A stretch of 39,037 bases of DNA from an uncultured Acidimicrobiales bacterium (GTDB lineage: Bacteria > Actinomycetota > Acidimicrobiia > Acidimicrobiales > AC-14): contig CADCTB010000221.1 of assembly GCA_902805665.1 (NCBI GenBank), positions 1 through 39,037 on the forward strand. The letters run 5' to 3'. Position 1 is the first letter of the stretch, and each line of letters starts with the position of its first letter. Below the pieces are notes generated by a model, which saw only the letters and a program-made list of their open reading frames with translations, searched no databases and was not told where the DNA came from. The position numbers and the translations under genes were made by a program. Positions 1 through 39,037 of the stretch are shown in pieces.

Positions 1-483
1 AGCTTCCTCGACCGGTGGTCCGGCACCGTCGCCTTCAACACGGTCTCCCGCACCTTCGACGACGAGGGCGGCTGGGTCGTCGTCGACCTCCAGGGCGGAA
101 CGCTCCAGGTGGCGGGGGGGATGGTCGGAAGCTCGGGAATCGCCGTGCTGGTCGTCGAGCCCTTCGCCAAGTCGGTGCTGACGGCCAGGCGGTTCGTCGG
201 CATGGGGGAGTGGCCGGCCGGCGTGCGACTGGTCGGAGTGGCCAACAAGATCGAGTCCGTCGACGATCAGGCCTACGTGGAGACCGCGCTCGACGAACTG
301 GGCGTCCCGCTGTGGGCCACGGTGCCGCTCGATCCTGCGGTGAAGCAGGCCGAACGCAACGCCCAGCCCCTGGTCACCCTCGACCCCGACACCCCGGCCA
401 AGCGGGCCGTCGCCGGTCTGGCCGACCGGTTGACCGAAGCAGCCGAGGCCAGTGAGGCCCTTCCCACCACATCGAGCAGCTGA
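1..483 (+). CDS. CooC/MinD-like P-loop ATPase, C-terminal part
   Basis: The reading frame is open from the first base of the window to the TGA at 481-483, so only the last 160 residues are visible and the P-loop lies upstream. What remains resembles the second half of CooC/MinD-type ATPases: a Walker-B-like strand (WVVVDLQGG), a strand ending VVEP, the ANK nucleotide-base motif (GVANKIES) and a C-terminal helix. The family uses ATP-driven dimerisation for metal insertion (CooC, nickel into CO dehydrogenase) or for positioning of other complexes. The same blocks (VVDLxGG, VVEP, VANK) occur in the gene 17 bp downstream, so the two are tandem paralogues. No CO dehydrogenase gene is in the window, so a role in its maturation is only inferred from the family. 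Confidence 0.75.
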   Translation, partial: SFLDRWSGTVAFNTVSRTFDDEGGWVVVDLQGGTLQVAGGMVGSSGIAVLVVEPFAKSVLTARRFVGMGEWPAGVRLVGVANKIESVDDQAYVETALDELGVPLWATVPLDPAVKQAERNAQPLVTLDPDTPAKRAVAGLADRLTEAAEASEALPTTSSS

Positions 484-500
484 CCGGAGAGGAGACCGCC

Positions 501-1229
501 GTGACCAAGATCGCTGTCGCCGGCAAGGGCGGATCGGGCAAGACCACAGTGGCGGGGGTGCTGGCCCGCCTCATGGCCGAGGACGGTCGGGAGGTGCTCA
601 CCGTCGACGCCGACGAGAACCCGAACCTCGGTATCTCGCTGGGGCTCGGCGTCGAGGGGACCTACGGGATCATCGGCGCCCGGGAGGAGATGCTGCTCGA
701 CGGGCCGGCGATCTCGTCGTCGATGGAGGACATCGTCGACCGGTTCGCGGCCGAGGCCGGCGAGCGCCTGCGCATCGTGCAGGTCCGCAAGTTCGACCAG
801 TTCCGCCCCGGCTGAGGCGGTCTCTCGGCCGGGCAGTTGCTCGCCGCACTGGAGGACAAGCCGGGCCGCGTGGTCGTCGTCGACCTCGGCGGAGGCGTCA
901 TGACGGTGGCCCGGGGTGACGAGAGCCAGATCGACGCCCTCGTCGTGGTCGTGGAGCCGTACCCCCGCTCGGCCGAGGTGGCCCGGCGGCTCCTCGACAT
1001 GGCTGCCACCAAGGGGATCACCCGGCGGGTGGTCGTGGCCAACAAGGTCTCGGACGACGACGACCTGCGGGCCATCCGCGAGTGGTTGGGGGTCGACCCG
1101 GACATCGTCATCCCCGAGGACCGCAGCGTGTCCGCCGCCGACAAGGCTGGCGCCTCTCCGATCGACCACGCCCCCGAGTCGAACGCCGTCGGGGCCCTGC
1201 GGCCGCTGGCCAGCTCGCTACTGGTCTAA
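501..1229 (+). pseudogene. CooC/MinD-like ATPase interrupted by an in-frame TGA
   Basis: It starts with GTG at 501, behind a GGAGAGGAGA ribosome site. The first 104 codons give a textbook deviant P-loop (AGKGGSGKTT, about residues 8-17) and the TVDADENPNL switch region. The frame is then stopped by TGA at 813-815. The same frame continues at once (GGLSAGQLLAALE) through VVVDLGGG, VVEP and VANK to TAA at 1227-1229. Read through, the product would be about 242 residues, the usual length for this family. The stop lies near where CooC proteins carry their Cys-x-Cys motif. Explanations are a nonsense mutation, a sequencing error (one base from TGC or TGG), or recoding of UGA as selenocysteine. The end overlaps the convergent AAA gene by 12 bp. 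Confidence 0.75.
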
Positions 1230-26604: not shown

Positions 26605-28038
26605 GTGGCACAGAACAACGGCCAGAGTAACGGCAAGGGCTACCAGGCCGGCGTCAAGAAGTACGCCGACACCTACTGGACCCCGGATTACGTGCCGTTG
26701 GACACCGACCTCCTGGCCGTCTTCAAGGTGATGCCCCAGGAGGGCGTGCCGCACGAGGAGGCGGCCGCCGCGGTGGCCGCCGAGTCATCCACCGGCACAT
26801 GGACCACGGTGTGGACCGACTTCCTCACCGATCTCGAGTACTACAAGGGCCGGGCCTACCGGATCGACCCGGTGAAGGACGGCTCCGGCGCCTTCTTCGC
26901 CTTCGTCGCCTACCCGATCGACCTGTTCGAGGAAGGCTCGGTCGTCAACGTCCTGACCTCCCTCGTGGGCAACGTCTTCGGCTTCAAGGCCATCCGCAGC
27001 CTGCGCCTCGAAGACATCCGCTTCCCGGTGGCGTACGTCAGGACCTGCGGCGGACCGCCCAACGGCATCCAGGTGGAGCGCGACCGTCTCAACAAGTACG
27101 GGCGCCCGCTGCTGGGCTGCACGATCAAGCCCAAGCTCGGCCTGTCGGCCAAGAACTACGGGCGCGCCGTCTACGAGTGCCTCCGAGGCGGGCTCGACTT
27201 CACCAAGGACGACGAGAACATCAACAGCCAGCCCTTCATGCGCTGGAACCACCGCTTCGAGTTCGTGATGGAAGCGGTGCACAAGGCCACGGCAGAGACG
27301 GGCGAGAAGAAGGGCCACTACCTCAACTGCACCGCGGCCACGCCGGAGGAGATGTACAAGCGGGCCGAGTTCGCCAAGTCGCTCGGCTCCCCGATCATCA
27401 TGCACGACTTCCTCACCGCCGGGTTCACCGCCAACACGGGCCTGGCGAACTGGTGCCGCGAGAACGGCATGCTGCTCCACATCCACCGCGCCATGCACGC
27501 GGTGATCGACCGCCACCCCATGCACGGCATCCACTTCCGGGTGCTGGCCAAGTGCCTGCGCCTCTCCGGAGGCGACCATCTCCACGCCGGCACCGTGGTC
27601 GGCAAGCTGGAAGGCGACCGCGAGGCCACGATGGGCTGGATCGATACCCTGCGGGAGTCCTACATCCCCGAGAACCGCAAGCGCGGCATCTTCTTCGACC
27701 AGGACTGGTCGTCGATGCCCGGCGTCATTCCCGTTGCCTCGGGGGGCATCCACGTCTGGCACATGCCCGCACTGGTGGCGATCTTCGGCGACGACGCCTG
27801 CCTGCAGTTCGGCGGCGGGACGCTCGGCCACCCGTGGGGCAACGCACCCGGCGCTCACGCCAACCGGGTAGCGCTCGAGGCCTGCGTCGAGGCACGGAAC
27901 CAGGGCCGGCAGGTCGAACGGGAGGGTAAGGAGATCCTTACCGAGGCGGCCCGCCACAGCCCCGAGCTCGCGATCGCGATGGACACCTGGAAGGAAATCA
28001 AGTTCGAGTTCGACACCGTGGACAAGATCACCGCCTGA
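26605..28038 (+). CDS. cbbL: RuBisCO large subunit, form I (carboxysomal type)
   Basis: 477 residues from GTG 26605, with AGGAG 7 nt before. The carbamylated lysine K201 is in [17 protein letters not shown], and the loop-6 lysine K334 is in [37 protein letters not shown] is the active-site strand, and the conserved HIHRAMHAV and [10 protein letters not shown] histidines are present. It fixes CO2 or O2 to ribulose-1,5-bisphosphate inside the carboxysome. The closeness to csoS2 and the overall sequence put it in form IA. The N-terminus has a short Gln/Asn/Gly-rich start ([20 protein letters not shown]). It heads the cso operon, 80 bp before cbbS. Confidence 0.97.
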
Positions 28039-28118
28039 TCGGCCCGGTCGCCGGTTCCACCCTCCCGGCCTCACGCTCTCGGCCCCTGAAGGACAGGGCC
28101 CCGAAAGGAGAGATTGCT

Positions 28119-28487
28119 ATGGATGTACAACCCTACGGGCCCACCCCCCGCCATGTTGAGACCTTTTCCTACCTGCCACAGATGACGCCCGAGCGGCTCC
28201 GCTACCAGATCGCATACCTCATCGAGTCGGGCTGGAGCCCGGCCATCGAACACACCGAGCCCGAGAAGTCCATGTCGAACTTCTGGTACCTGTGGGAGCT
28301 CCCCTACTTCGGTGAGCAGTCGGTGGACAGGGTCTTGGCGAAGCTGGACGAGTGCCACCGGGCCAATCCCGGTCACCACGTGCGCCTTCTCGGCTACGAC
28401 AACTTCCAGCAGTCCCAGGGCACGGCTTTCATCGTCCACCGCGCTGGTGGCGGCCCGCGGGCGTCCAATGTCAGTGGAGCCCGCTGA
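28119..28487 (+). CDS. cbbS: RuBisCO small subunit
   Basis: 122 residues from ATG 28119, with AAGGAG before it. [30 protein letters not shown] and the [28 protein letters not shown] core match form I small subunits, and [21 protein letters not shown] is the final strand. The protein then runs on for about 14 extra residues ([14 protein letters not shown]) beyond where small subunits usually end. The segment encoding AFIVHR (28425-28442) is copied at 28763-28780, at the end of the small CsoS2-like ORF. It is 80 bp behind cbbL and 2 bp before the next start. Confidence 0.97.
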
Positions 28488-28489
28488 CA

Positions 28490-28795
28490 ATGGACATGAA
28501 CGTGGACCAGACCGCCGGCAGCGGTGATCTGGCCGCGCCCCGAGACGCGGCCCGGTACGGGCGTGCTGCGGCAATGACCCGGCGCCGGGCTCTCTCCGCC
28601 GGCCGGTCGGCCTTGTCGCCCACGCGTCCCACCGCTCCCACGCCGGCGGCGACGGTGGTCGCGACCGACGGCGTGCCTCCCGCCCGTCTCGCCCGGGCCT
28701 TCTCCATGCAGCGACGCCGCCAGCTGTCCCAAGGCAAGCGGGCGCTGAACGGCGGCGCGCCGGCCTTCGTCGTCCACCGCGGGGGAGCTGGCTGA
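28490..28795 (+). CDS. Miniature CsoS2-like protein with two N-repeats and a CbbS-like tail
   Basis: 101 residues from ATG 28490, in a different frame from csoS2. The start (MDMNV..., RDAARYGRAAA about 18-28) aligns with the csoS2 start (MGMYA..., RDAARGGRAAA). It holds two CsoS2-type N-repeats: RYGRAAAMTRRRALSAGRSAL (22-42) and LARAFSMQRRRQLSQGKRAL (67-86). These basic helices bind RuBisCO in CsoS2. The last residues, PAFVVHRGGAG, copy the CbbS C-terminus ([11 protein letters not shown]). The best reading is a tandem duplication of the cbbS tail plus csoS2 5' end, leaving this ORF fused in frame to a copied cbbS tail. TGA is followed 2 nt later by the csoS2 ATG. Whether it is expressed or functional is unknown. 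Confidence 0.7.
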   Translation: MDMNVDQTAGSGDLAAPRDAARYGRAAAMTRRRALSAGRSALSPTRPTAPTPAATVVATDGVPPARLARAFSMQRRRQLSQGKRALNGGAPAFVVHRGGAG

Positions 28796-28797
28796 GC

Positions 28798-31314
28798 ATG
28801 GGAATGTACGCAGTCGACACGGCCGACGCCGCTGAGCTGGGCGAACTCCGAGATGCTGCCCGTGGCGGTCGCGCCGCGGCGACCTTGCGCCGCCGCCAGC
28901 TGTCCCAGGGCAAGCAGGCGCTGAAGGGCGCAGCCGCGCTGCTCGCCGACGAGAACCTGCAGGCCAACGGCGCAGAGGCGGCCCCCGCGGCCAACGGTCA
29001 GGGCGCGCCGAACGGCACGCAAGGGGCTCAGGAGGCGCCGGCCGCCCCGACCGACGCCGTGGCCGCGGCTCACTTCGGCCGCTCCGTCTCCATGGAGCGC
29101 CGCCGTCAGCTGTCCCAGGGCAAGCAGGCGCTGAAAGGCGCTGGCGCGCTGAACGGCGCAGTGGACGTGCCGGCCAACGGCGCGAGTGCTCCACCCGCCG
29201 CCAACGGTCAAGGCGCGCCCAACGGCCAGACGGCTGCTCCCACGGACGCCGTCGCTGCGGCTCACTTCGGCCGCTCCGTCTCCATGGAGCGCCGCCGCCA
29301 GCTGTCCCAGGGCAAGCAGGCGATCAAGGGCGCCGGCGGGCTGCCGCCTGCCGAGAACCGCCAGGTCGACCGCGCCCCTGCGCCCCCTGCCGACGCTCAA
29401 GACGCGCCCAACGGGCAGTCGGCCGCCCCCACCGACGCCGTCACCGCCGCTCACCTCGGCCGTTCCCTCTCCGTGCAGCGCCGCCGCCAGCTGTCCCAGG
29501 GCAAGCTGGCGCTGAACGGCGCCGGCGCCCCGCCCGCCCCGCAGGACCGGCAGGTCGAGGCTGCTCGCGCGGCCAACGGTCAAGGCGCGCCGAACGGCCA
29601 GACCGCCGCCCCCACCGACGCCCTGACCGTCGCCCAGCTCGGCCGCGCCCTCTCCATGGAGCGCCGCCGCCAGCTGTCCCAGGGCAAGCAGGCCCTGACC
29701 GGCGCCGGCCCGCTGCCCGCGGCGGAGAACGTGCACGCCGACGTCGACGCCGGCGTCGACGCCGGCTCAGGTCGTGATCGGGCCCGGGCTCGGCGCGCCC
29801 AGGCGAGCCGCCTGGGCAGCGCAGGGATCAGCAGGCCGGAGCGACAGGGCCGGGTCAGGTACGTGCCCAAGGTCATCGAGTCGCCCACCCACGGCGGCCA
29901 GCACGTGACCGGGGTCCGGATCGGTCCGGGCGTGCAGGTCACGGGCGGAGAGCCCGGCGCTTCCCTCCCCGTGTCGGGCACGCAGTACGTTCCGGCCGAT
30001 GGCCCGGCCCCCGAGCCGGGCCACGGGGTCAAGGTCGGGCTGATGCGGACGCCGCAGGGCCTCGTCGTCTCAGGCACCACCGTTCGGGGCAACGTGCCCA
30101 TCACCGGTGACGAGCCCGGCGAGCACCTCCCCATCACCGGCGAAGCCGACCAGAAGTTCGACGACGACATCACGCCACGCGCTTATGGCGGATACCGTCC
30201 GGCGCAGTTCCCCCGCCGGGCCGACCCCCACGGCGCAACCGCGGTCGGCGGCAGGCTGGGTGTCCCACCGCCGCCCGCGCTGGCGCTGGAGATCACCGAC
30301 GACGGGCTGGGCGTCACGGGCACGGCCGTCGGCCGCAGCGGGCGGGTCACCGGGAACGAGGCCGGCGCCTGCCGCCCGATCACCGGCGACCAGTACCAGA
30401 ACCTCTACTCCACCGAGTGCGGCGCCATCGGTGGCGGTACCGCGCCGGCCGCCCACCTCGACCGGGCCCGTTTCGACCCGGTGACCGGGGGCAAGGTGAC
30501 CGTGGCGCAGACCTGGAAGGGCCAGCACGTCACCGGCCCGAGCCTGGAGTACCGCCCCAACGTCACCGGCGACGAGCCGGGTGACTGCCGCCCGGTGACC
30601 GGCACGCCCTACCAGGGGCCAACCACCATGTTCGGCTGGTGTGAGCCCGACGAGGTTGACCCGGCGACCCAGCGCCTCGAGCCCAGGCCTGCAGGCGTGG
30701 CGGTGACCGGCGACCTCCCCATGCACTCCGACCTGGTCACCGGCATCGAGCGCGGCTATCGGAACGACATCAGCGGGTCGTCGTACTACGGCGAGATGCG
30801 GCCCGCGGAGCCGGCGGTCGACGACGACTGGGCCCGCGGGTCCTTCCCGGTGGCCCAGGCCCGTCGCCTGGCCGGCAGGGAGCCCGCCAAAAAGAGGACC
30901 GACGCGGCGCCGCCACCGTCCTGCGAACCTGGCCGCATCACCGGGGCCTTCGCCATCAGCGCAGGCAGGGTGACGGGCAACAACGAGTTCCTGTTCCAGC
31001 CCCGCACCGTCCAGACTCGTGGCGCCACGCAAACGGCGATCACGGGCGAAGGGCGCACCGACGGTCGTGCGGTCACGGGTACCGCCGCCGCCTGGACGTC
31101 CCACGGCCTGGTCACGGGCACCGAGGGCGACATCGCGGCCGGGCGCAACCCCACCGAGGGCGGCGGCCCGTCCAACGCCTGGGCCGGAGCCCAAAGGTTC
31201 AAGAACCTGGCCACGCCCGGAGGGCCGAATGAGAACGCGAGGGTCACCGGCCGAGTCGGCGGGACCCCGAAGGACGGGGTCAGGGTCACCGTCTCCGGCG
31301 GAGCCCAAGGATGA
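28798..31314 (+). CDS. csoS2: CsoS2 carboxysome assembly protein
   Basis: 838 residues, intrinsically disordered scaffold linking RuBisCO to the shell. The N-terminal region has five repeats with an RRRQLSQGK core (residues 31, 101, 165, 228, 289), each followed by an Ala/Pro/Gly/Gln-rich linker such as NGQGAPNGQTAAPTDA. The middle region has five [V/I][T/S]G triplet repeats spaced by 8 residues (about 370-660), with few cysteines. The C-terminal region (about 700-838) has VTG and ITG blocks, GRNP, and ends VSGGAQG, close to the conserved shell-anchoring end of the family. No stop or canonical slippery frameshift leading to a short form was found. It overlaps csoSCA by 4 bp. Confidence 0.95.
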   Translation: MGMYAVDTADAAELGELRDAARGGRAAATLRRRQLSQGKQALKGAAALLADENLQANGAEAAPAANGQGAPNGTQGAQEAPAAPTDAVAAAHFGRSVSMERRRQLSQGKQALKGAGALNGAVDVPANGASAPPAANGQGAPNGQTAAPTDAVAAAHFGRSVSMERRRQLSQGKQAIKGAGGLPPAENRQVDRAPAPPADAQDAPNGQSAAPTDAVTAAHLGRSLSVQRRRQLSQGKLALNGAGAPPAPQDRQVEAARAANGQGAPNGQTAAPTDALTVAQLGRALSMERRRQLSQGKQALTGAGPLPAAENVHADVDAGVDAGSGRDRARARRAQASRLGSAGISRPERQGRVRYVPKVIESPTHGGQHVTGVRIGPGVQVTGGEPGASLPVSGTQYVPADGPAPEPGHGVKVGLMRTPQGLVVSGTTVRGNVPITGDEPGEHLPITGEADQKFDDDITPRAYGGYRPAQFPRRADPHGATAVGGRLGVPPPPALALEITDDGLGVTGTAVGRSGRVTGNEAGACRPITGDQYQNLYSTECGAIGGGTAPAAHLDRARFDPVTGGKVTVAQTWKGQHVTGPSLEYRPNVTGDEPGDCRPVTGTPYQGPTTMFGWCEPDEVDPATQRLEPRPAGVAVTGDLPMHSDLVTGIERGYRNDISGSSYYGEMRPAEPAVDDDWARGSFPVAQARRLAGREPAKKRTDAAPPPSCEPGRITGAFAISAGRVTGNNEFLFQPRTVQTRGATQTAITGEGRTDGRAVTGTAAAWTSHGLVTGTEGDIAAGRNPTEGGGPSNAWAGAQRFKNLATPGGPNENARVTGRVGGTPKDGVRVTVSGGAQG
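28888..29688 (+). repeat. Five tandem csoS2 N-repeat cores
   Basis: Near-identical 27-nt units coding RRRQLSQGK begin at 28888, 29098, 29290, 29479 and 29662. The periods shrink from 210 to 183 bp. A sixth copy (28712-28738) and a diverged one lie in the upstream 101-aa ORF. The DNA identity suggests recent or homogenised duplication. Confidence 0.85.
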
Positions 31315-32897
31315 AGTCCGTGCTCCAGCCCGACGGACGGTGGCTCGCTCCCTGGGACGCGGCTGCGGCCTGGCCGCGCCAGGGCGCGGTGGCGACGGTC
31401 ACGTCTCCGCCTGGCCGGGCGGCCCGGAACGGCGGGTTCGGGCTCAACGTCGCGGCGGGTGGGCATCCGCTGGCGGAGCCGGCGCTCAGCGCCGCCCTGA
31501 AGCAGCGAGCCGAGGAGATCGAGGCCGCCTTCGCGCTCATCCAACCCGTCCTACGCCGGCTGGCGCCGCGCCAGTTCGACGACGGCTTTCCCGAGCAGGC
31601 GCATGGCCAGCTGGTCAACTCGCTCGGGGTCGACATCCCCGCGGCTGAGCTCAACTCGTCCTGGAGCACACCGCTGGACCTCGGTCGCCTCCATGCCCGC
31701 TGCGTGCTCGGGACCTTCCGCAACCTGGTGGAGCGCGAGTTCGACCGGAACCTCCCCGCGCTGCTCGACGAGGGCGAGAGCGCCGAGGTGTTGATCCCGC
31801 GCTTCGGCTTCCACGCGGTCGACATCACCTCCTGCTCCGACGGGCGCCTCCTGGGGGCGGTGGACTTCATCCTCCGGGTGCCGCAGGCGGTCGTGGTGTG
31901 GCACGACGCCTATGCCGGCGCCATGTTCGACGTGGAGGACGCGCTGCACCGCTGGGAATCGGTGGAGCTTCGACGCTGGCGCGAGGGCCGTCCGAACGAC
32001 GCCAGCGAGCCCACCCGCTACCTGAAGGTCGGCCTCTACCACTTCAGCAGCGCCGATCCCCGCCACCAAGGCTGTGCCGCGCACGGCAGTGACGAGGTGC
32101 GCGCCGCCACCGCCCTGCTGGCGCGGCTCCAGGAGTTCGAGGGTGCCGTCGAGTCCACCCAGTGCTGTGGGGCGAGCGTGGCCACACTGCTCGTGGGGGT
32201 GGACACCGACACCGACGCCATCCGCGTCCACGTTCCGGATGCCGCTGGGCGGACCGACGTGGACCGCTTCGTTTCCAGCGCCGCGCTCTACGAGCAGACT
32301 GCGAGCCTCGGGCGCGAGGCCGCCAAGGAGTTCATCCGCCAAGTGGTCGCCGACTGCACCGGCGTGGACGCGGCCGACGCCCGGACCGAGGGCATGCGTT
32401 GGCTCTGCGGCTACCTGCTGAAGAACAACATCGGTCAGGTCGACGCGGTTCTGGGCTGGATCGGCGGACGGTACGCGGATCCCGGCCACACCGAGAAGCT
32501 GCTCGTGGCGGGCGACGCGATCGACGACGTTCAGCTGCGCAACCTCGCCTTCCAGGCACAGATGCGCACGCTCGAAGAAGGTGCCGTCGACCTCGACGTC
32601 GGCATCGGGATCCTCCGCAGGACGAACGCGCCGCACGGGCTTGCGGTTCCGGTGCTCGTGCACGTCGCCTACGACGAGCGCATCCCGGGCGCCTGCGCCA
32701 CCGCGCAAACACGTGCTCGCCGCCTCACCGCGGCCATCGAGACCCGGTATGCAGATGCGGCCGGCAGTGATGGCCTCGTCGTTCAAGGGGTCGTGCGGGC
32801 GCGGGGCCGGGCGCGGCTGGAGCTGGTCGAGGCGGAGGGCGACGGGCCAATGAGCTCGCTCCCACCCGGAGCGCGACGGAAGGAGGCACTGCGATGA
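31311..32897 (+). CDS. csoSCA: Carboxysome shell carbonic anhydrase CsoSCA
   Basis: 528 residues from ATG 31311, an ATGA overlap with csoS2. In the family (numbering of the Halothiobacillus enzyme) zinc is held by C173, H242 and C253, with D175 and R177 as active-site partners. Here C175-x-D177-x-R179 (ITSCSDGR), H244 (GLYHFSS) and C255 (HQGCAAHG) give the same spacing, H to C being 11 in both. It should convert bicarbonate to CO2 inside the carboxysome. The first 90 residues are an Ala/Pro-rich N-terminal region, the part that binds RuBisCO in other members. The start of csoS4A overlaps its stop by 4 bp. Confidence 0.95.
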   Translation: MKSVLQPDGRWLAPWDAAAAWPRQGAVATVTSPPGRAARNGGFGLNVAAGGHPLAEPALSAALKQRAEEIEAAFALIQPVLRRLAPRQFDDGFPEQAHGQLVNSLGVDIPAAELNSSWSTPLDLGRLHARCVLGTFRNLVEREFDRNLPALLDEGESAEVLIPRFGFHAVDITSCSDGRLLGAVDFILRVPQAVVVWHDAYAGAMFDVEDALHRWESVELRRWREGRPNDASEPTRYLKVGLYHFSSADPRHQGCAAHGSDEVRAATALLARLQEFEGAVESTQCCGASVATLLVGVDTDTDAIRVHVPDAAGRTDVDRFVSSAALYEQTASLGREAAKEFIRQVVADCTGVDAADARTEGMRWLCGYLLKNNIGQVDAVLGWIGGRYADPGHTEKLLVAGDAIDDVQLRNLAFQAQMRTLEEGAVDLDVGIGILRRTNAPHGLAVPVLVHVAYDERIPGACATAQTRARRLTAAIETRYADAAGSDGLVVQGVVRARGRARLELVEAEGDGPMSSLPPGARRKEALR

Positions 32898-33241
32898 AGA
32901 TCTTCTGCGTCGAAGGCACGCTGGTCGCCACGGCCCGCATCGGTGGCCTCGAGCTCCACCGGCTGCTGGTCGTCGTGGACCGCAAGGGAGGCAAGCAGGT
33001 GGCGGTCGACCCCGTCGGCTGCAAGCCCGGCGACTGGGTGATCGCGTGTGGAAGCTCGGCGGCGCGCGAAGCCGCCGGCCACAAGGACTACCCGAGCGAC
33101 CTGACCATCGTCGGCATCATCGACTTTTGGGACGAGGAGGCCCCGGGACAAGACAGCCCGGAGGAGGAGCGCCCCGACGAGCCGGAGCTGTTGGTCGTGG
33201 AGTCGGTCGCCCCCTCTTCGAACGGTGGGGCCCGACGATGA
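32894..33241 (+). CDS. csoS4A: Carboxysome vertex protein CsoS4A
   Basis: 115 residues, BMC-P (EutN/CcmL) fold: MKIFCVEGTLVATARIGGLELHRLLVVVDR, then a VAVDPVGCKPGDWVIACGSSAARE loop and a SDLTIVGIIDFWDEE end. Pentamers cap the icosahedral shell vertices. The C-terminus has a long acidic, Pro/Ser-rich extension (about 84-115, EEAPGQDSPEEERPDEPE) that is not part of the fold. It starts in an ATGA overlap with csoSCA and ends in another with csoS4B, so all three are coupled. Confidence 0.95.
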   Translation: MKIFCVEGTLVATARIGGLELHRLLVVVDRKGGKQVAVDPVGCKPGDWVIACGSSAAREAAGHKDYPSDLTIVGIIDFWDEEAPGQDSPEEERPDEPELLVVESVAPSSNGGARR

Positions 33242-33498
33242 ACATCCAACGCGTCGTCGGCGATCTCGTCGCCACCAGTCGAACCCCCATGCTCCAGAAC
33301 CGGTCGCTACGGGTGGTCGAGGACGACAGCGGCGACCTGGAAGTGGCGCTCGACCCGGTCGGCACAAGGCCGGGCGACTTCGTCATCACCATCAGCACCT
33401 CGGCGGCCCGCCATGCCACCGGCGATTACCGCGTCACCACCGACCTGACCATCGGCGGAATCATCGACGACTGGAGCGAGGAGCGATGGCGCGACTGA
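33238..33498 (+). CDS. csoS4B: Carboxysome vertex protein CsoS4B
   Basis: 86 residues from ATG 33238, overlapping csoS4A by 4 bp. Another BMC-P protein: MNIQRVVGDLVATSRTPMLQNRSLRVVED, then LEVALDPVGTRPGDFVITISTSAARHATGDYRVTTDLTIGGIIDDW. It matches CsoS4A block by block without its acidic tail. The two vertex proteins are usually encoded together. 62 bp separate it from csoS1. Confidence 0.95.
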   Translation: MNIQRVVGDLVATSRTPMLQNRSLRVVEDDSGDLEVALDPVGTRPGDFVITISTSAARHATGDYRVTTDLTIGGIIDDWSEERWRD

Positions 33499-33560
33499 CC
33501 CGGTCCACTCCCACCCTGTAACACCCGATCTCAACTCACATACGGAGGAAAGCAGAGAAG

Positions 33561-33893
33561 ATGGCCAACCAAAATGGAAGTTCCGACATTCCGGGCATTG
33601 CCCTGGGCATGATCGAGACCCGGGGCCTCGTCCCCGCGATCGAGGCTGCCGACGCCATGACCAAGGCGTCAGAGGTGCGGCTGATCGGCCGCCAGTTCGT
33701 CGGCGGCGGCTACGTCACCGTGCTGGTGCGTGGCGAGACGGGCGCCGTCAACGCCGCAGTCCGTGCCGGTGCTGACGCGTGCGAGCGCGTGGGCGACGGC
33801 CTGGCTGCTGCACACATCATCGCCCGGCCGCACGGCGAGGTCGAGAACATCCTTCCCGACAGTCCCCGCGAAACCCAGGTCGCCCCGGTCTAG
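33561..33893 (+). CDS. csoS1: Carboxysome major shell protein CsoS1 (BMC-H)
   Basis: 110 residues from ATG 33561, with GGAGGAAAG about 12 nt before. A single BMC domain: IALGMIETRGLVPAIEAADAMTKASEVRLIGRQFVGGGYVTVLVRGETGAVNAAVRAGADACERVGDGLAAAHIIARPHGEVENILP. Hexamers tile the shell facets, and the GGGYVTV loop shapes the central pore. It is the only BMC-H gene in the window; many alpha-carboxysome loci carry two or three csoS1 copies. No csoS1D-type tandem domain protein is seen. A long inverted repeat follows the stop. Confidence 0.95.
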   Translation: MANQNGSSDIPGIALGMIETRGLVPAIEAADAMTKASEVRLIGRQFVGGGYVTVLVRGETGAVNAAVRAGADACERVGDGLAAAHIIARPHGEVENILPDSPRETQVAPV

Positions 33894-33941
33894 GGCCCTC
33901 CAGGTGAACGATTCGCTCCGCCGCGGTACTCCGGGGCGGCG

Positions 33942-33978
33942 ATCCTGAACGCCAGGCAGTCCGGCTGGCGTTCAGGAT
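33942..33978 (+). terminator. Long stem-loop after csoS1
   Basis: A 14-bp perfect stem (ATCCTGAACGCCAG at 33942-33955, complement at 33965-33978) with a 9-nt loop lies between csoS1 and the acRAF-like gene. It is followed by TTCCCCATTC rather than a U-tract. It may be a partial terminator or an RNA stabiliser that keeps csoS1 mRNA abundant relative to downstream genes. Confidence 0.65.
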
Positions 33979-34005
33979 TCCCCATTCACCGACGAGGAGA
34001 ATGAA

Positions 34006-34281
34006 ATGACTACAGAACCCCGATGGCCGGAGGGCTGGACGGAGGTCGAAAGACCGCCGTCGTTGTACCGCCGCTTCGAGTTCGCCGACTACTCCGAGAC
34101 ACGAGCCTTCCTCAACCGGCTCGCGAGCCTGTCGAAGGAGACCGGGCTCGATCCGGACCTGAGCTTCACCCGGACACACGTCACCGTCACGGTGTATGGC
34201 GCGGATGGAGCGACAGTCGACGCGGAGGCACGAGAGTTCGCTGCGCGCGCCGAGGCAATCGCTACCTTGGAGGCAGCTTGA
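34006..34281 (+). CDS. Pterin-4a-carbinolamine dehydratase-like RuBisCO assembly factor (acRAF)
   Basis: 91 residues from ATG 34006, with GAGGAG in the leader. The PCD fold is recognisable (PSLYRRFEFADYSETRAFLNRLASLSKETGLDPDLSFTRTHVTVTVYG), but the dehydratase His-His-Pro is replaced by Leu-Asp-Pro, so it is unlikely to be an active enzyme. Such degenerate PCDs in cso operons (acRAF) help RuBisCO assembly. Position, size and lost active site support that role. It follows csoS1 after a stem-loop and precedes the 96-aa gene by 1 bp. Confidence 0.88.
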   Translation: MTTEPRWPEGWTEVERPPSLYRRFEFADYSETRAFLNRLASLSKETGLDPDLSFTRTHVTVTVYGADGATVDAEAREFAARAEAIATLEAA

Positions 34282-34282
34282 C

Positions 34283-34573
34283 ATGACCCCCGCTAAACGC
34301 CGCCCGGCCACCCCCGTGAGCCCGGGCTCCACGAGAATGGCCCCGGACGTGCCCAGAGTGGCGAACCGGGCGCCCGCGTCTCCTGTGGAGACGAAGGACG
34401 ACACCCAACTGCTCGGCCCCGAGGGCGAACCCATCGCCTTGGAAGCTGCAACCGAAGATGCCGGTGGCGACCCGGCCCCTCCGCAGACCGGGCAAGTGGA
34501 CCCTGAGGCTCGCGCGACGCAGTCGCGACGGCGACCTGGTGGGCTGTACCCGCTACCCGTCTGGCCGGACTGA
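34283..34573 (+). CDS. Disordered 96-aa protein of the cso locus (McdB-like?)
   Basis: 96 residues from ATG 34283, one base after the acRAF stop. It is low in hydrophobics: a basic start (TPAKRRPATPVSPGSTRMAP), a Pro/Ala/Glu/Gln-rich middle (EGEPIALEAATEDAGGDPAPPQTGQ), a basic patch (SRRRPGG) and an aromatic end LYPLPVWPD with the only tryptophan three residues from the terminus. It should be disordered. Alpha-carboxysome McdB positioning proteins are also small, disordered and noted for a C-terminal tryptophan, so McdB is one candidate identity. No ParA-like McdA is seen nearby, and the likeness is not a homology claim. The stop and the Nudix start overlap as TGATG. Confidence 0.6.
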   Translation: MTPAKRRPATPVSPGSTRMAPDVPRVANRAPASPVETKDDTQLLGPEGEPIALEAATEDAGGDPAPPQTGQVDPEARATQSRRRPGGLYPLPVWPD

Positions 34574-35571
34574 TGCTGCCTGGCCGCCGTCTACCCCTCC
34601 GCGGTCGTCCCGTGGTGGACGTGGCGGTCGGCGTGGTCCGCGCGCCCGACGGGCGGGTATTGCTGGCAGAGCGCAGGCCCGGCAGGGACGCGGCCGGCTT
34701 CTGGGAGATTCCCGGAGGCCAGGTCGAGCCGGGCGAGAGCCCGGCCGGGGCTGCGGCGCGTGAGTTGCTCGAGGAGGTCGGCATCCACGCCCTCGAGCTC
34801 GCGCCCTGGCGGGTCTACGAGCACGACTTCCCGGCCAAGCGCGTGCGGCTGCACTGGTTCAACGTGCGCCGGTGGTCGGGCGAGCCCAAGGGCAGGGAAG
34901 GTCAGCAGGTGGCATGGGTGGACCCCGCCCGGCCGACGGTCGGGCCACTGCTGCCGAGCAACGAGCTCGCCTTCGCCACGTTGGCGCTCCCCGAGCTGGT
35001 GGGAGTGGCCCGGGTGAACCACGCGCCGGGCGCTCCTCAGGAGCTGCTGGCGAGGATCCCGTCGTTGGCGGCCGGCGGCCTGCGGCTCCTGATCGTGCGA
35101 GCGCTGGACCTGGCGCCCGGTCAGCGCGTCCAGCTCACCCGCCGGCTGCGCGACAGCAGGCGGGGGACCGAGCTGCGCCTCCTTCTCTCCGGGACGGCGC
35201 TGGAGGCTCGCCAGGCCGGTGCCTGCGGGCTGCACAGCACGGCCGCCGCGCTGGCCGGCCTCATAGAGCGGCCGCCCACGCGGCTGTGGGCGGTGTCAGC
35301 CCACAACGCACGGGACCTCGAGCGCGCCAGTGCCCTGGGTGCCGACTTCGCCATCGTGTCGCCGGTTCTGCCGACGGCTTCGCACCCCGGAGACCAGGCG
35401 TTGGGTTGGGACGGCCTGCAGGCGCTGGCGGCAGCCAGCCCGTTGCCTGTCTACGCGCAAGGGGGGCTGGGGCCTGGTGACATCGGCGCGGCGCACTCGG
35501 TAGGGGCGCTGGGTGTGGCCGTCGACATCTCCCGCCTCTCGAGCTCGGGCCGCAACGGGTCCACGCCGTGA
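34573..35571 (+). CDS. Nudix hydrolase fused to a ThiE/TenI-like domain
   Basis: 332 residues from ATG 34573 (TGATG with the previous gene). Residues 14-135 are a MutT-like Nudix domain with box GGQVEPGESPAGAAARELLEEVGI. Residues 155-325 are a TIM-barrel domain like thiamine-phosphate synthase/TenI (ADFAIVSPVLPTASH, VYAQGGLGPGDI, GALGVAVDIS), with AQGGL where the synthase has AIGGI. This two-domain protein is known from proteobacteria, where the ThiE-like half lacks a proven activity. Removal of oxidised nucleotides, or of a damaged cofactor or sugar phosphate, is possible. Its place inside the cso operon hints at a role in keeping RuBisCO chemistry clean; that is inference. Confidence 0.85.
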   Translation: MLPGRRLPLRGRPVVDVAVGVVRAPDGRVLLAERRPGRDAAGFWEIPGGQVEPGESPAGAAARELLEEVGIHALELAPWRVYEHDFPAKRVRLHWFNVRRWSGEPKGREGQQVAWVDPARPTVGPLLPSNELAFATLALPELVGVARVNHAPGAPQELLARIPSLAAGGLRLLIVRALDLAPGQRVQLTRRLRDSRRGTELRLLLSGTALEARQAGACGLHSTAAALAGLIERPPTRLWAVSAHNARDLERASALGADFAIVSPVLPTASHPGDQALGWDGLQALAAASPLPVYAQGGLGPGDIGAAHSVGALGVAVDISRLSSSGRNGSTP

Positions 35572-35781: not shown

Positions 35782-37425
35782 ATGACGCTCCCCGAGACGC
35801 TGCTGATCTTTGTGCCCGCGCTGCCGGCCATCGGCGCGGCCGCGATCGCGGTCGCGCGCCCCGCCGGAGCGCGGGCCTCAAGGTGGGGGGTGCGAGCAGC
35901 CGCTGCTGCGTTCGCCGCCGCGGTCGTCGTGGCGGTCGTCGTGGCTGCGGACGGACCGGTCGCAGCCGTGGTCGAGGGGAACGATGGCGATGCGCTCGTC
36001 GGCCTGTATGCGAGTCGCGTCACCGCCCTTTTGGGCCTGCTCACCACCGGCGTCGGCTTGGTCGTCCAGTCCTTCGCCGGCCGTAACCTGCAGGGGGATC
36101 TCTTCGCCCGCCGCTTCTTCGTACTGGCCTCGCTGCTGACAGCGGCCACGACGTCCGTGGCCTTCGCCGCCACCCTCGGCCTGCTGTGCGCCGCCTGGAT
36201 CGTGGCCGGCCTGGCGTTGGCTGCGCTCGTGACCCACCGGGCCACCTGGCAACCGGCGAGGCGCTCGTCCCGGCGGACCCTGCGCAGCCTCTGGATCGGA
36301 GACGGGGCGCTCCTGGCGGCCACACTGCTCACCATCGTCTCTGTCGGCGAGATCGACCTCCGCTCGCCGGCCGGCGCCGCGGAGGAACTCGCTGACGCGT
36401 CGATTGCGGTGCTCGGTGGGAACGTGTTGTGGGTGGTCGCCGTGCTCCTGACCGTTGCCGGCATTTCCCGGTCCGCGCTCGTACCCGTGCACCAGTGGCT
36501 GCCGTCCACCATCGCCGCGCCGACGCCGGTGTCGGCGCTGCTCCACGCCGGCGTGGTCAACGGCGCCGGCATGCTGTTGGTGCGACTGGCGCCGGTGTTC
36601 GGGTCCTCGGCCGTGGCGACGCACGTCGCCTTCGCCGCCGGTGCCGTCACGACCTGTTACGCGACGACCGTGATGCTCGTGCGCAGCGACGTGAAGGGGA
36701 ACCTGGCGTGGTCCACGGCAGGGCAGATGGGGTTCATGACGGTGCAGGTGGCCATAGGAGCGTTCCCCGCGGCGTTGCTCCACATCATCGGGCACGGCAT
36801 GTACAAGGCCGCCCTGTTCCTCAGGGCCGGCAGCGCGGTGATGGACCATCTGCACCAGCGGCAACGCCCTCCCGCACATGTCGTCGCCCGCAGCGTTCGA
36901 CTGAGCGTCGCGCTGCTCGTGCCGGCCGCGGCACTTTGGGCCGCGTACGTGATCATCCACCCGCACCTGTCGACGGCGGCGGGTGTGCTCGTGACGGTGT
37001 TCGCGTGGGCAACGGCAGCCCGGGCTGTCGATGGGTGGCTGCGCTCCGCCCCGTTCCGGCCCGTTCCGGCGGTCGCAACCGCGGCATTCGGTTCCGCCGC
37101 CGGAGTGTTCGCCTACGTCGGTGGGCTGACCGCGGTGGAGACCTTCGTCGCTGACGCGCTTCCCGCCGAGGTCCCCGAGCCGGTCAGCTCCGCTCTCCTT
37201 GTTGCGACGCTCGCGGCGATCGCGCTTGTGGTCGCCGTCGTCTGGCTCACTCCAGGGGAGCCGATGCGCAGGTTGCGCAGCCGGGTGTACGCCCTCGCGC
37301 TCACCTCGGCGCCCGTCGCCTCCTCGTTGACGACCCGAGGCAGTTCCACCGGGGTGGCGCCCGTGCCGGAATCCCGCCACCTTCGGCCGGACATGGAGCT
37401 GGTCCGATCGACACGATCGAGATGA
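35782..37425 (+). CDS. dabB: Inorganic-carbon pump membrane subunit DabB (NuoL-like)
   Basis: 547 residues from ATG 35782, about 14 membrane helices. It belongs to the proton-conducting NuoL/MrpA family: SALVPVHQWLPSTIAAPTPVSALLHAGVVNGAGMLLVR (central lysine/histidine helix region), CYATTVMLVRSDVKGNLAWSTAGQMGFM, and ALLHIIGHGMYKAALFLRAGS. Shorter than NuoL and directly followed by dabA, it is DabB, which couples ion movement to the DabA zinc subunit. Together they take up and trap CO2 as bicarbonate at the membrane. Its stop overlaps the dabA start by 4 bp. Confidence 0.92.
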   Translation: MTLPETLLIFVPALPAIGAAAIAVARPAGARASRWGVRAAAAAFAAAVVVAVVVAADGPVAAVVEGNDGDALVGLYASRVTALLGLLTTGVGLVVQSFAGRNLQGDLFARRFFVLASLLTAATTSVAFAATLGLLCAAWIVAGLALAALVTHRATWQPARRSSRRTLRSLWIGDGALLAATLLTIVSVGEIDLRSPAGAAEELADASIAVLGGNVLWVVAVLLTVAGISRSALVPVHQWLPSTIAAPTPVSALLHAGVVNGAGMLLVRLAPVFGSSAVATHVAFAAGAVTTCYATTVMLVRSDVKGNLAWSTAGQMGFMTVQVAIGAFPAALLHIIGHGMYKAALFLRAGSAVMDHLHQRQRPPAHVVARSVRLSVALLVPAAALWAAYVIIHPHLSTAAGVLVTVFAWATAARAVDGWLRSAPFRPVPAVATAAFGSAAGVFAYVGGLTAVETFVADALPAEVPEPVSSALLVATLAAIALVVAVVWLTPGEPMRRLRSRVYALALTSAPVASSLTTRGSSTGVAPVPESRHLRPDMELVRSTRSR

Positions 37426-39037
37426 GCAACCGAGACGACGGCCACCGCGGACGATCTGACCGCGACGCCGAACTCCTCGCCGATGTCTCCGAAGCGGCCC
37501 AGATCATCGCTCCGCTGTGGCCGCTGACCAGCTTCGTGGCGGTCAATCCCCTCCTCGGCCTCCAGCACCTGCCCTTCGACGACGCCACGGCGGTCGCCCG
37601 ACGGTGGTTGCGGGCACGCACGCACCTCACGCTCGCCGGGTTCCGCGAGGCCCACGCCCACGGTGCCGTCACCGATGCTGATCTCCGGCGCGCCATCATC
37701 GAAGTCGACGCCAAGCTGGCGTCGCAGCCCAGCTTCGAGGTAGGGGAGCGAACGGTCGATGCGGTGGAGATCGTCCTTTTGGACCTACTCCTGGGACCGG
37801 ACGACAAGCCCCGGGAGACCGCCGACGATAGGGTCGGCCGCACGGATGTGGCGACCGTCCGGGCGGTCAGCCAGCTCGTGGCCGCGTGGTGTGCAGTCTT
37901 CGTCGACGAGGCCCACGTTCCATGGCCCATGCCCCGCCGCGAGCACGGGTTCTTCCGTGCGTGGCGAGAGCTCGCGCCACACGACCGACGGCTGCGGCGC
38001 CTCGCTGGCCCGACGGGCATGCAATGGCTGGCGCAACTGTCTGATCGTCCGGTCGAGGCCCTCGCCGCCTCGCTCGATGCGCTGGATGTCGGCGACGATC
38101 GCGTCGGCGCCCTTCGCGAGCACCTCGGCCGGCTTCCGGGCTGGGCCGGGTACGCGCGCTGGAACGACGAGTGGGCTCCGCCCGACGACCATCGCCCCTC
38201 GTTGCGCCTCGTGGACCTGCTCGCCGCGCAGGTGGCTGCAACGGCAGCGGCGGCCCATGGCGCCGCTGCTCAGCAGCCCGCCCAGCTGCCGGACGAGGAG
38301 GTCGAGAACGAGAAGCTCCTCGAGGACCGGGTGGCGACGGTGCTCTCCGCTCTCGGAAGCAATTCCGACGATCCCTTCGTCACGTCTGCCGTGCGGGGCG
38401 TCCTGCAGCAGGTGCCGCCGCCGGTGCGGAAGTCGATGTGGCTCGAGGCGCAGGAGGGCAACTTCCGCGATCGTCTGCTGGGACTGATGACCCGCTTGGA
38501 CCCCGGCCCGGTGACCGAGCGGCCGGACGTCCAAGCGGTCTTCTGCATCGACGCCCGCTCGGAGGGCCTGCAACGGCGCCTGCAGGCATGCGGCCCCTAC
38601 GACACCTTCGGGTTCGCCGGGTTCTTTGGCGTTCCCGTGCGCTGGCGGCCGCTCGGGTCGACGGAGAGCGAGGCGCGCTGCCCCGTGCTGTTGAAGCCTG
38701 AACACGACGTCGCCGAGCAGCCACTCCTCCCTGACGGTGCCCTCGGCTACCTCACCGCGCAGCGAACCACCGGCGCAGGACAAGAGGCCTTTCACGCGGC
38801 CAAGGGGAGCCTGGTCGGTCCGTTCGCGCTGGCCGAGGCGGCGGGTTACCTCATGGGTCCGGCGGCCGCGGCGAGGACGCTGACACCAGGCTTGGTGCGT
38901 CGCCTGAAAGGACTGACGGCGCGCCGAGTCGCCCCCCCGCAGACACGACCGGCTGTCGAGGCGGAGAACGACGACAGCTCCGGCTTGGCGCTCGAGGAGC
39001 GGGTCTCGTTCGGGAACAACATCGTCGGCACCATGGG
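37422..39037 (+). CDS. dabA: Inorganic-carbon pump zinc subunit DabA (DUF2309), partial
   Basis: Starts at ATG 37422 in an ATGA overlap with dabB; the frame is open to the window end (538 codons), so the C-terminus is missing. The early region LWPLTSFVAVNPLLGLQHLPFDDA matches the start of DUF2309 proteins. The first zinc-site half is FCIDARSE (C375, D377), equivalent to C351/D353 of the Halothiobacillus protein. The second half (His/Cys, about residues 548-563 by the same offset) lies just beyond the window. DabA is thought to be a beta-carbonic-anhydrase-like protein that hydrates CO2 vectorially with DabB. It completes the CO2-concentrating function of the cso locus. Confidence 0.93.
   Translation, partial: MSNRDDGHRGRSDRDAELLADVSEAAQIIAPLWPLTSFVAVNPLLGLQHLPFDDATAVARRWLRARTHLTLAGFREAHAHGAVTDADLRRAIIEVDAKLASQPSFEVGERTVDAVEIVLLDLLLGPDDKPRETADDRVGRTDVATVRAVSQLVAAWCAVFVDEAHVPWPMPRREHGFFRAWRELAPHDRRLRRLAGPTGMQWLAQLSDRPVEALAASLDALDVGDDRVGALREHLGRLPGWAGYARWNDEWAPPDDHRPSLRLVDLLAAQVAATAAAAHGAAAQQPAQLPDEEVENEKLLEDRVATVLSALGSNSDDPFVTSAVRGVLQQVPPPVRKSMWLEAQEGNFRDRLLGLMTRLDPGPVTERPDVQAVFCIDARSEGLQRRLQACGPYDTFGFAGFFGVPVRWRPLGSTESEARCPVLLKPEHDVAEQPLLPDGALGYLTAQRTTGAGQEAFHAAKGSLVGPFALAEAAGYLMGPAAAARTLTPGLVRRLKGLTARRVAPPQTRPAVEAENDDSSGLALEERVSFGNNIVGTM

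Follow-up and report, generated by a model that had tools for sequence, protein, structure and literature searches.

Does an actinobacterial carboxysome operon encode an McdB, and what could such a protein do without its ATPase partner, McdA? The question arises from a reading frame for a 96-aa protein in the window (the whole stretch of 39,037 nucleotides that was analyzed, from an uncultured bacterium of the actinobacterial order Acidimicrobiales, hereafter the order). The operon runs cbbL, cbbS, csoS2, csoSCA, csoS4A, csoS4B, csoS1, acRAF, the 96-aa ORF, Nudix-TenI, dabB, and dabA, and the place of the ORF between the acRAF-like and Nudix-TenI genes bears out its membership of the carboxysome operon, as proposed by an earlier reading made from the sequence alone (the sequence-only reading). 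The neighboring genes are given below; acRAF, cbbS, and dabA/dabB, like bfr, cbbQ, and cbbO further on, are names that we presume to apply.

26605 to 28038, plus strand: cbbL, from the family scan.
28119 to 28487, plus strand: the gene we take to be cbbS, with matches in ten of ten compared loci.
28798 to 31314, plus strand: csoS2 (PF12288).
31311 to 32897, plus strand: csoSCA, carbonic anhydrase (TIGR02701).
32894 to 33241, plus strand: csoS4A (TIGR02703).
33238 to 33498, plus strand: csoS4B-like vertex protein, a frame picked by its likeness to the CsoS4 of relatives and not by family scan.
33561 to 33893, plus strand: csoS1, BMC shell protein (PF00936).
34006 to 34281, plus strand: acRAF-like gene (PF01329, 33.9 bits).
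34573 to 35571, plus strand: Nudix-TenI fusion gene (NF006530, 289.7 bits; cut-off, 245).
35782 to 39035, plus strand: dabB and dabA (PF00361 in dabB), with dabA continuing past the window end.

The slot that holds the ORF is arranged as acRAF-mcdB-Nudix in the window and its four near relatives and as bfr-acRAF-mcdA-mcdB-cbbQ in other relatives of the order (G032, G345, G036, and G082). Unlike the order's other untruncated cso loci, neither window positions 26605 to 35571 nor the loci of the near relatives (L027 to L030) gave a match for bfr, cbbQ/cbbO, or mcdA. The Nudix-TenI gene (NF006530) is part of the cso operon in the window clade (34573 to 35571 in the window; L027 to L030) and in locus L174 (8621 to 9709), and the other 59 of the 60 gammaproteobacterial stretches gave no match for it; in all it was found in 6 of 73 loci, many of the stretches showing little of the upstream side.

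The ORF starts with ATG and stops with TGA. Base 34282 is the only one between it and the acRAF-like stop codon (34279 to 34281), and its stop overlaps the Nudix ATG by one base, 34573, just as the sequence-only reading had described. The ORF and its parts are as follows.

34269 to 34273, plus strand: GGAGG, a possible ribosome-binding site of the ORF, 9 bases 5' of the ATG, read from the sequence.
34283 to 34573, plus strand: predicted orphan alpha-McdB, 96 aa, disordered, ending in LYPLPVWPD (from the reading frame, relatives, and AlphaFold2).
34283 to 34366, plus strand: basic, proline-rich N-terminal stretch (28 aa), at the place of the helix motif in McdA-linked McdBs (from alignment, charge, and helix propensity).
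34562 to 34573, plus strand: WPD-stop, the putative carboxysome-association tag of alpha-McdBs, TGGCCGGACTGA (signature from PMC11321042).

The protein is rich in proline, alanine, and arginine, and its net charge is +4 in residues 1 to 28, -9 in residues 29 to 76, and +3 in residues 77 to 96. Its charge-hydropathy value of -0.032 is close to the boundary, on the disordered side, and the AlphaFold2 model from the single sequence (mean pLDDT, 63; pTM, 0.14) has no helix of at least 4 residues and no strand of at least 3, in agreement with the disorder noted earlier; disorder was judged from these two measures. No Pfam or NCBIfam model matched the ORF, neither library giving an alpha-McdB model for it, and Pfam gave no match for the two relatives scanned either.

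alpha-McdBs are 51 to 169 aa long, nearly completely disordered, and low in hydrophobicity, and share a mean identity of about 15%, which means that absent similarity outside the signature is to be expected; the C-terminal WPD is invariant among them, within a consensus R(V/I)WPD whose arginine is not invariant, and in Halothiobacillus neapolitanus McdB the last 10 residues suffice for carboxysome association (PMC11321042). The 96-aa protein ends in VWPD, with proline replacing the consensus arginine. The sequence-only reading had picked out the lone C-terminal tryptophan; it is indeed the sole one, third from the end, and it belongs to this alpha-McdB signature, which that reading missed. The residue at the arginine position is variable in the order (orphans, three P, two R, and one E, n = 6; McdA-linked, two A and two R, n = 4), whereas it is arginine in 38 of 39 linked and 18 of 18 orphan proteins of Gammaproteobacteria. 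The window and ten related loci of 11 to 20 kb together contain 3,222 stop-to-stop frames with 30 or more codons; eight of these end in WPD, and all eight are the ORF or its counterpart in the same slot; hence the WPD end is not a product of chance. A scan of the window's genome for W-P-D-stop gave 18 loose matches, 4 of them with a true stop, and only the ORF is a protein-sized frame; the frames around the other 3 true-stop sites have only 6, 24, and 39 codons, and we rejected the idea that this genome encodes a second McdB at another site. By its tag, place, length, and disorder the ORF thus qualifies as an alpha-McdB on sequence grounds, which supports the earlier suggestion of a possible orphan McdB.

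We surveyed cso loci in the order and in a second class. Among 397 genomes of the order, 11 gave a CsoSCA match; searches of the class (5 of 395 genomes) and of the family (3 of 10) returned only genomes already found. A WPD-ending ORF is present in all 8 untruncated loci, and the remaining 3 of the 11 stop at contig ends: in G036 and G082 the bfr-acRAF-mcdA-mcdB-cbbQ segment sits on another contig, and in G092 the cso contig ends within acRAF. G092 has four true-stop WPD sites, three in short frames; a 271-codon frame with an LVWPD end at C80, near 45126 (L099, 627 to 1442, minus strand), is taken for an antisense frame. Used as the query for related loci, the acRAF-like protein retrieved a single locus, which lies in a genome of Caballeronia that lacks CsoSCA. 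The class of that genome, which we take to be Gammaproteobacteria, has CsoSCA in 68 of 369 genomes, from which 60 loci were retrieved. Of these, 56 carry, on the strand of the operon, an ORF that ends in WPD, 52 of them with an acRAF match, and the other 4 are pieces of 3.4 to 4.0 kb cut at contig ends. The ORF lies behind mcdA in 38 loci and occurs only as an orphan in 17; L154 has both, its orphan following acRAF and its mcdA-mcdB pair lying some 10 kb away. L139, where McdA is frame-broken in the data, was assigned to the linked group by hand. In L168 and L175 (genomes G784 and G899), the last 40 residues of the orphan McdBs contain repeated modules (DPY(R/Q)S, DAFQ, and D(V/A)YQ) before WPD. 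The sequence-only reading would have given up the McdB idea had there been neither an McdB match nor a conserved terminal tryptophan; the profile match is indeed lacking, but WPD is kept in 8/8 untruncated loci of the order and 56/56 of Gammaproteobacteria.

A partner was sought with an McdA profile of 42 sequences run on 33 genomes. The four McdA-linked controls, which, like G807, contributed sequences to the profile, scored 253 to 312 bits. Among gammaproteobacterial genomes with a cso orphan, 14 of 18 have an McdA away from it (288 to 307 bits; about 10 kb off in G807 and G855), 13 of these finds being outside the profile; the other four lack an McdA at this level (G784, 53 bits; G899, 51; G866, 92; G960, 92), so that G784 and G899 are orphan-McdB genomes without a detectable McdA. 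The 92-bit matches in G866 and G960 are possibly divergent McdAs or other ParAs. No McdA was detected by the profile in any of the six orphan-bearing genomes of the order, the window's genome (best match, 46 bits) among them (G000, 46 bits; G029, 46; G079, 48; G066, 50; G104, 49; G154, 51), and four relatives without CsoSCA score at the same level (46 to 48 bits). An earlier two-sequence profile had likewise given at most 39 bits in these six genomes, with a best of 32 in the window's genome. AAA_31 has 21 matches in the window's genome, and 8 loci were inspected; P-loop frames were recognized by motif in 6 of them and not in L002 or L003, and none of these frames is McdA-like. We take the inspected P-loop frames to be one chromosomal-type ParA and CooC/ArsA-like ATPases.

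The window itself contains a ParA/CooC-type P-loop frame (KGGSGKTT; 456 to 815, plus strand), which was rejected as McdA with only 19.8 bits against an McdA profile, and the earlier statement that no ParA/McdA is visible in the operon holds. Ten frames chosen in the first 12 kb of the window gave no Pfam match, probably because they were not the true reading frames. The window's genome is 96% complete with 4.4% contamination in 227 contigs; since all five clade genomes (96 to 98% complete) lack an McdA, a gap in a single assembly is an unlikely cause, and an McdA too diverged for the profile or residing on an unbinned replicon may still exist. With mcdA absent from the operon and none detected in the genome, the 96-aa alpha-McdB is classed as an orphan from these searches. 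Where the sequence-only reading had left a choice between a partner elsewhere and a different way of positioning, the failure to find McdA in the genome speaks against the former and favors the latter.

Does the protein retain the part that would bind McdA? In H. neapolitanus McdB, residues 1 to 20 are both required for binding to McdA and sufficient for it; they include a predicted helix whose lysine 7 is critical (preprint PMC12204374). A motif devised after inspection of the linked sequences, (K/R/Q/M)(L/M)xxx(I/M/V/L/T)(R/K/Q/S/A), searched in the first 32 residues, occurs in 43 of 43 McdA-linked McdBs versus 0 of 24 orphans, compared with a mean of 3.3 and a maximum of 9 of 43 in the shuffled linked set. 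Start codons were set via the mcdA stop for linked ORFs and via a ribosome-site score for orphans, and at least that of L153 may be wrong. A held-out HMM trained only on gammaproteobacterial linked proteins separates the proteins of the order partially (linked, 6.0, 3.7, 1.0, and -2.5 bits; orphans, -1.3 to -8.4); among gammaproteobacterial orphans, two reach 4.9 and 1.2 bits. Two measures that were not fitted to the motif agree with it: residues 1 to 20 contain on average 0.33 prolines in linked proteins versus 1.67 in orphans, and helix propensity over residues 2 to 18 differs between the groups with p = 4e-7 when kinship is ignored. The 96-aa protein has prolines at positions 3, 8, 11, and 14 and lacks the helix motif. 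The missing motif, the prolines, and the helix propensity lead us to infer that the McdA-binding arm is gone.

The basic start, which the sequence-only reading had taken as an McdB cue, is real (residues 1 to 20 include 4 charged ones and have a net charge of +4; gammaproteobacterial means of charged residues, 7.3 for linked proteins and 4.8 for orphans). Unlike the N-terminal helix motif, it does not mark McdA-linked McdBs, because the mean net charge of residues 1 to 20 is +3.3 in orphans of the order versus +2.0 in linked proteins of the order.

The reading that we prefer, at a probability of roughly 0.7, is that an alpha-McdB has been kept for work at the carboxysome surface after the loss of its ATPase partner. 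By analogy with the Halothiobacillus protein, the C-terminal VWPD, with the tryptophan through which alpha-McdBs associate with carboxysomes, would bind it to the carboxysome surface; with neither the N-terminal helix nor mcdA, the McdA gradient that spaces carboxysomes could not run; and a disordered surface coat might then tune carboxysome association without an ATPase, by holding shells at a distance from one another, by gathering them into clusters, or by labeling those that are active. In Synechococcus, deleting McdB has further consequences that deleting mcdA does not, and McdB is suspected of roles besides McdA recruitment (PMC8406218).

Positioning might instead still run with another ParA-family ATPase in place of McdA, such as the chromosomal-type ParA at C129 (407-aa frame), which would use the new basic N-terminus. 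ParA/MinD ATPase partners are reported to bind via charged N-termini (PMC10241942), and in the clade MTPA(K/R) is kept in 5/5 genomes and MTPA(K/R)RR in 4/5, alignment columns 1 to 22 being among the better kept. We nevertheless consider this unlikely: the partner interfaces of these ATPases are reported as specific (PMC10241942), the ParA signal is at an equal level in the relatives without CsoSCA, and the P-loop frames at 6 of the 8 inspected loci, from the 21 AAA_31 matches, yielded nothing McdA-like.

It is likewise improbable that the protein is an ATPase-free tether, a special case of McdB acting without an ATPase, with its basic N-terminus on nucleoid DNA and its WPD end on the carboxysome. 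The basic ends around an acidic middle are consistent with such an arrangement, and PhaM and PhaF of PHB granules are tabulated as binding both scaffold and organelle, the scaffold being the nucleoid (PMC13052382). However, the first 20 residues include only 4 basic ones, which is few for DNA binding, and two of these are lost in L030.

The ORF might also be a decaying remnant left by the loss of mcdA, a reading that can point to the fast-evolving middle, dN/dS values of 0.5 to 1.2, and the missing partner. Yet the frame, the MTPA start, and the VWPD end are kept in the window genome and its four near relatives (5 genomes from 2 families) although in-frame lengths range from 71 to 96 aa, and dN/dS lies between 0.5 and 1.0 in 9 of 10 clade pairs (1.2 in the pair of the window and L027). 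Identity is 0.61 and 0.62 at the ends (0.61 in columns 1 to 22) versus 0.50 to 0.53 in the middle, so constraint on the protein is weak and strongest at the ends. With its ends kept, its length changes in frame, and dN/dS mostly below 1, the ORF looks like a real gene, and decay is quite improbable. That it is an unrelated disordered protein with a coincidental VWPD end, as the missing family profile match might suggest, is scarcely credible given that WPD ends only frames in this slot among 3,222 and that low similarity is expected at the mean identity of alpha-McdBs (PMC11321042).

How the alpha-McdB came to stand without its ATPase was approached with an unrooted tree of CsoSCA from 71 loci. 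In it, the window clade's five operons join L174 (genome G718) with support of 100/100, and the order's other six operons form a separate group (100/99); a single cso origin for all 11 was rejected (AU test, p = 1.7e-65), and cso operons seem to have entered this actinobacterial order at least twice, from different sources. L174 has the order csoS1-bfr-acRAF-mcdA-mcdB, followed by a LysR-like frame and then the Nudix-TenI gene. The simplest story would be that an L174-like operon entered the window lineage and then lost bfr and mcdA; its conditional form reflects the unrooted tree and the long branches spanned by the junction of the window clade and L174, and changes on an unrooted tree alone cannot separate loss from gain. 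The linked or orphan state needs 5 changes on the tree, and mcdA would have been lost a second time, independently, in L024 (G154), whose orphan belongs to the other group of the order. A bolder version, which we hold only tentatively and think rather doubtful, is that mcdA was discarded after a cso operon of proteobacterial type had entered the actinobacterial lineage, and that the McdB N-terminus was remodeled (MTPA(K/R)RR, rich in proline) to serve either direct contact with the nucleoid or a new partner; McdB would then organize the carboxysomes by itself.

Type 1 alpha-McdBs, represented by H. neapolitanus McdB, resemble the 96-aa protein in the WPD end, length, disorder, and location behind acRAF in a cso locus. 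They differ in lying directly 3' of mcdA, whereas the 96-aa ORF has no adjacent or detectable distant mcdA, and in having a helix with an McdA-contacting lysine where the 96-aa protein has a proline-rich stretch. Type 2 alpha-McdBs of proteobacteria reside in the cso operon, with an mcdAB pair located separately at another genomic site (PMC8262871), and share with the 96-aa protein a cso operon without mcdA, the WPD end, disorder, and the absence of the McdA-binding N-terminal helix motif. According to the McdA profile scores, this type 2 picture fits most gammaproteobacterial cases (14 of 18 genomes) but fails for the six orphan genomes of the order, the window's among them, where no mcdAB elsewhere was detected. 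A possible further difference is the N-terminus, described as lacking charge in type 2 and basic here (+4 in 20), and the host here is an actinobacterium instead of a proteobacterium. Its genome has nine matches to WhiB, a family for which, among 14 control genomes, Corynebacterium alone gave a signal, in keeping with an actinobacterial host.

Orphan McdBs of cyanobacteria and proteobacteria, which also occur without McdA and are thought to be independent of it (PMC8406218), are thus already published; the passage on them in that paper mentions no actinobacterium and reports no test at the scale of whole genomes. A 2026 review describes, in the section concerned, a partnerless proteobacterial McdB placed away from the cso locus (PMC12918739), and, according to a review on atypical carboxysome loci that does not mention McdB, one such locus was transferred to an actinobacterium (PMC9164163). 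Our literature search, whose scope did not include the main survey (MacCready 2021), found alpha-McdB described in proteobacteria and no account of McdB in actinobacteria. What is added here, as judged from genome sequences, is an orphan alpha-McdB in an actinobacterial clade with McdA undetected in 5/5 genomes, which would widen the range of alpha-McdB to include a lineage of actinobacteria. In the part that treats orphan McdBs, PMC8262871 leaves open for what reason certain bacteria possess one as a second McdB, and most gammaproteobacterial orphans (14/18) share their genome with an McdA, a confounder of which the window clade is free as far as detected; a single deletion in this clade would therefore read out McdA-independent McdB function, and the clade offers a natural test of McdB acting alone in a CO2-fixing bacterium.
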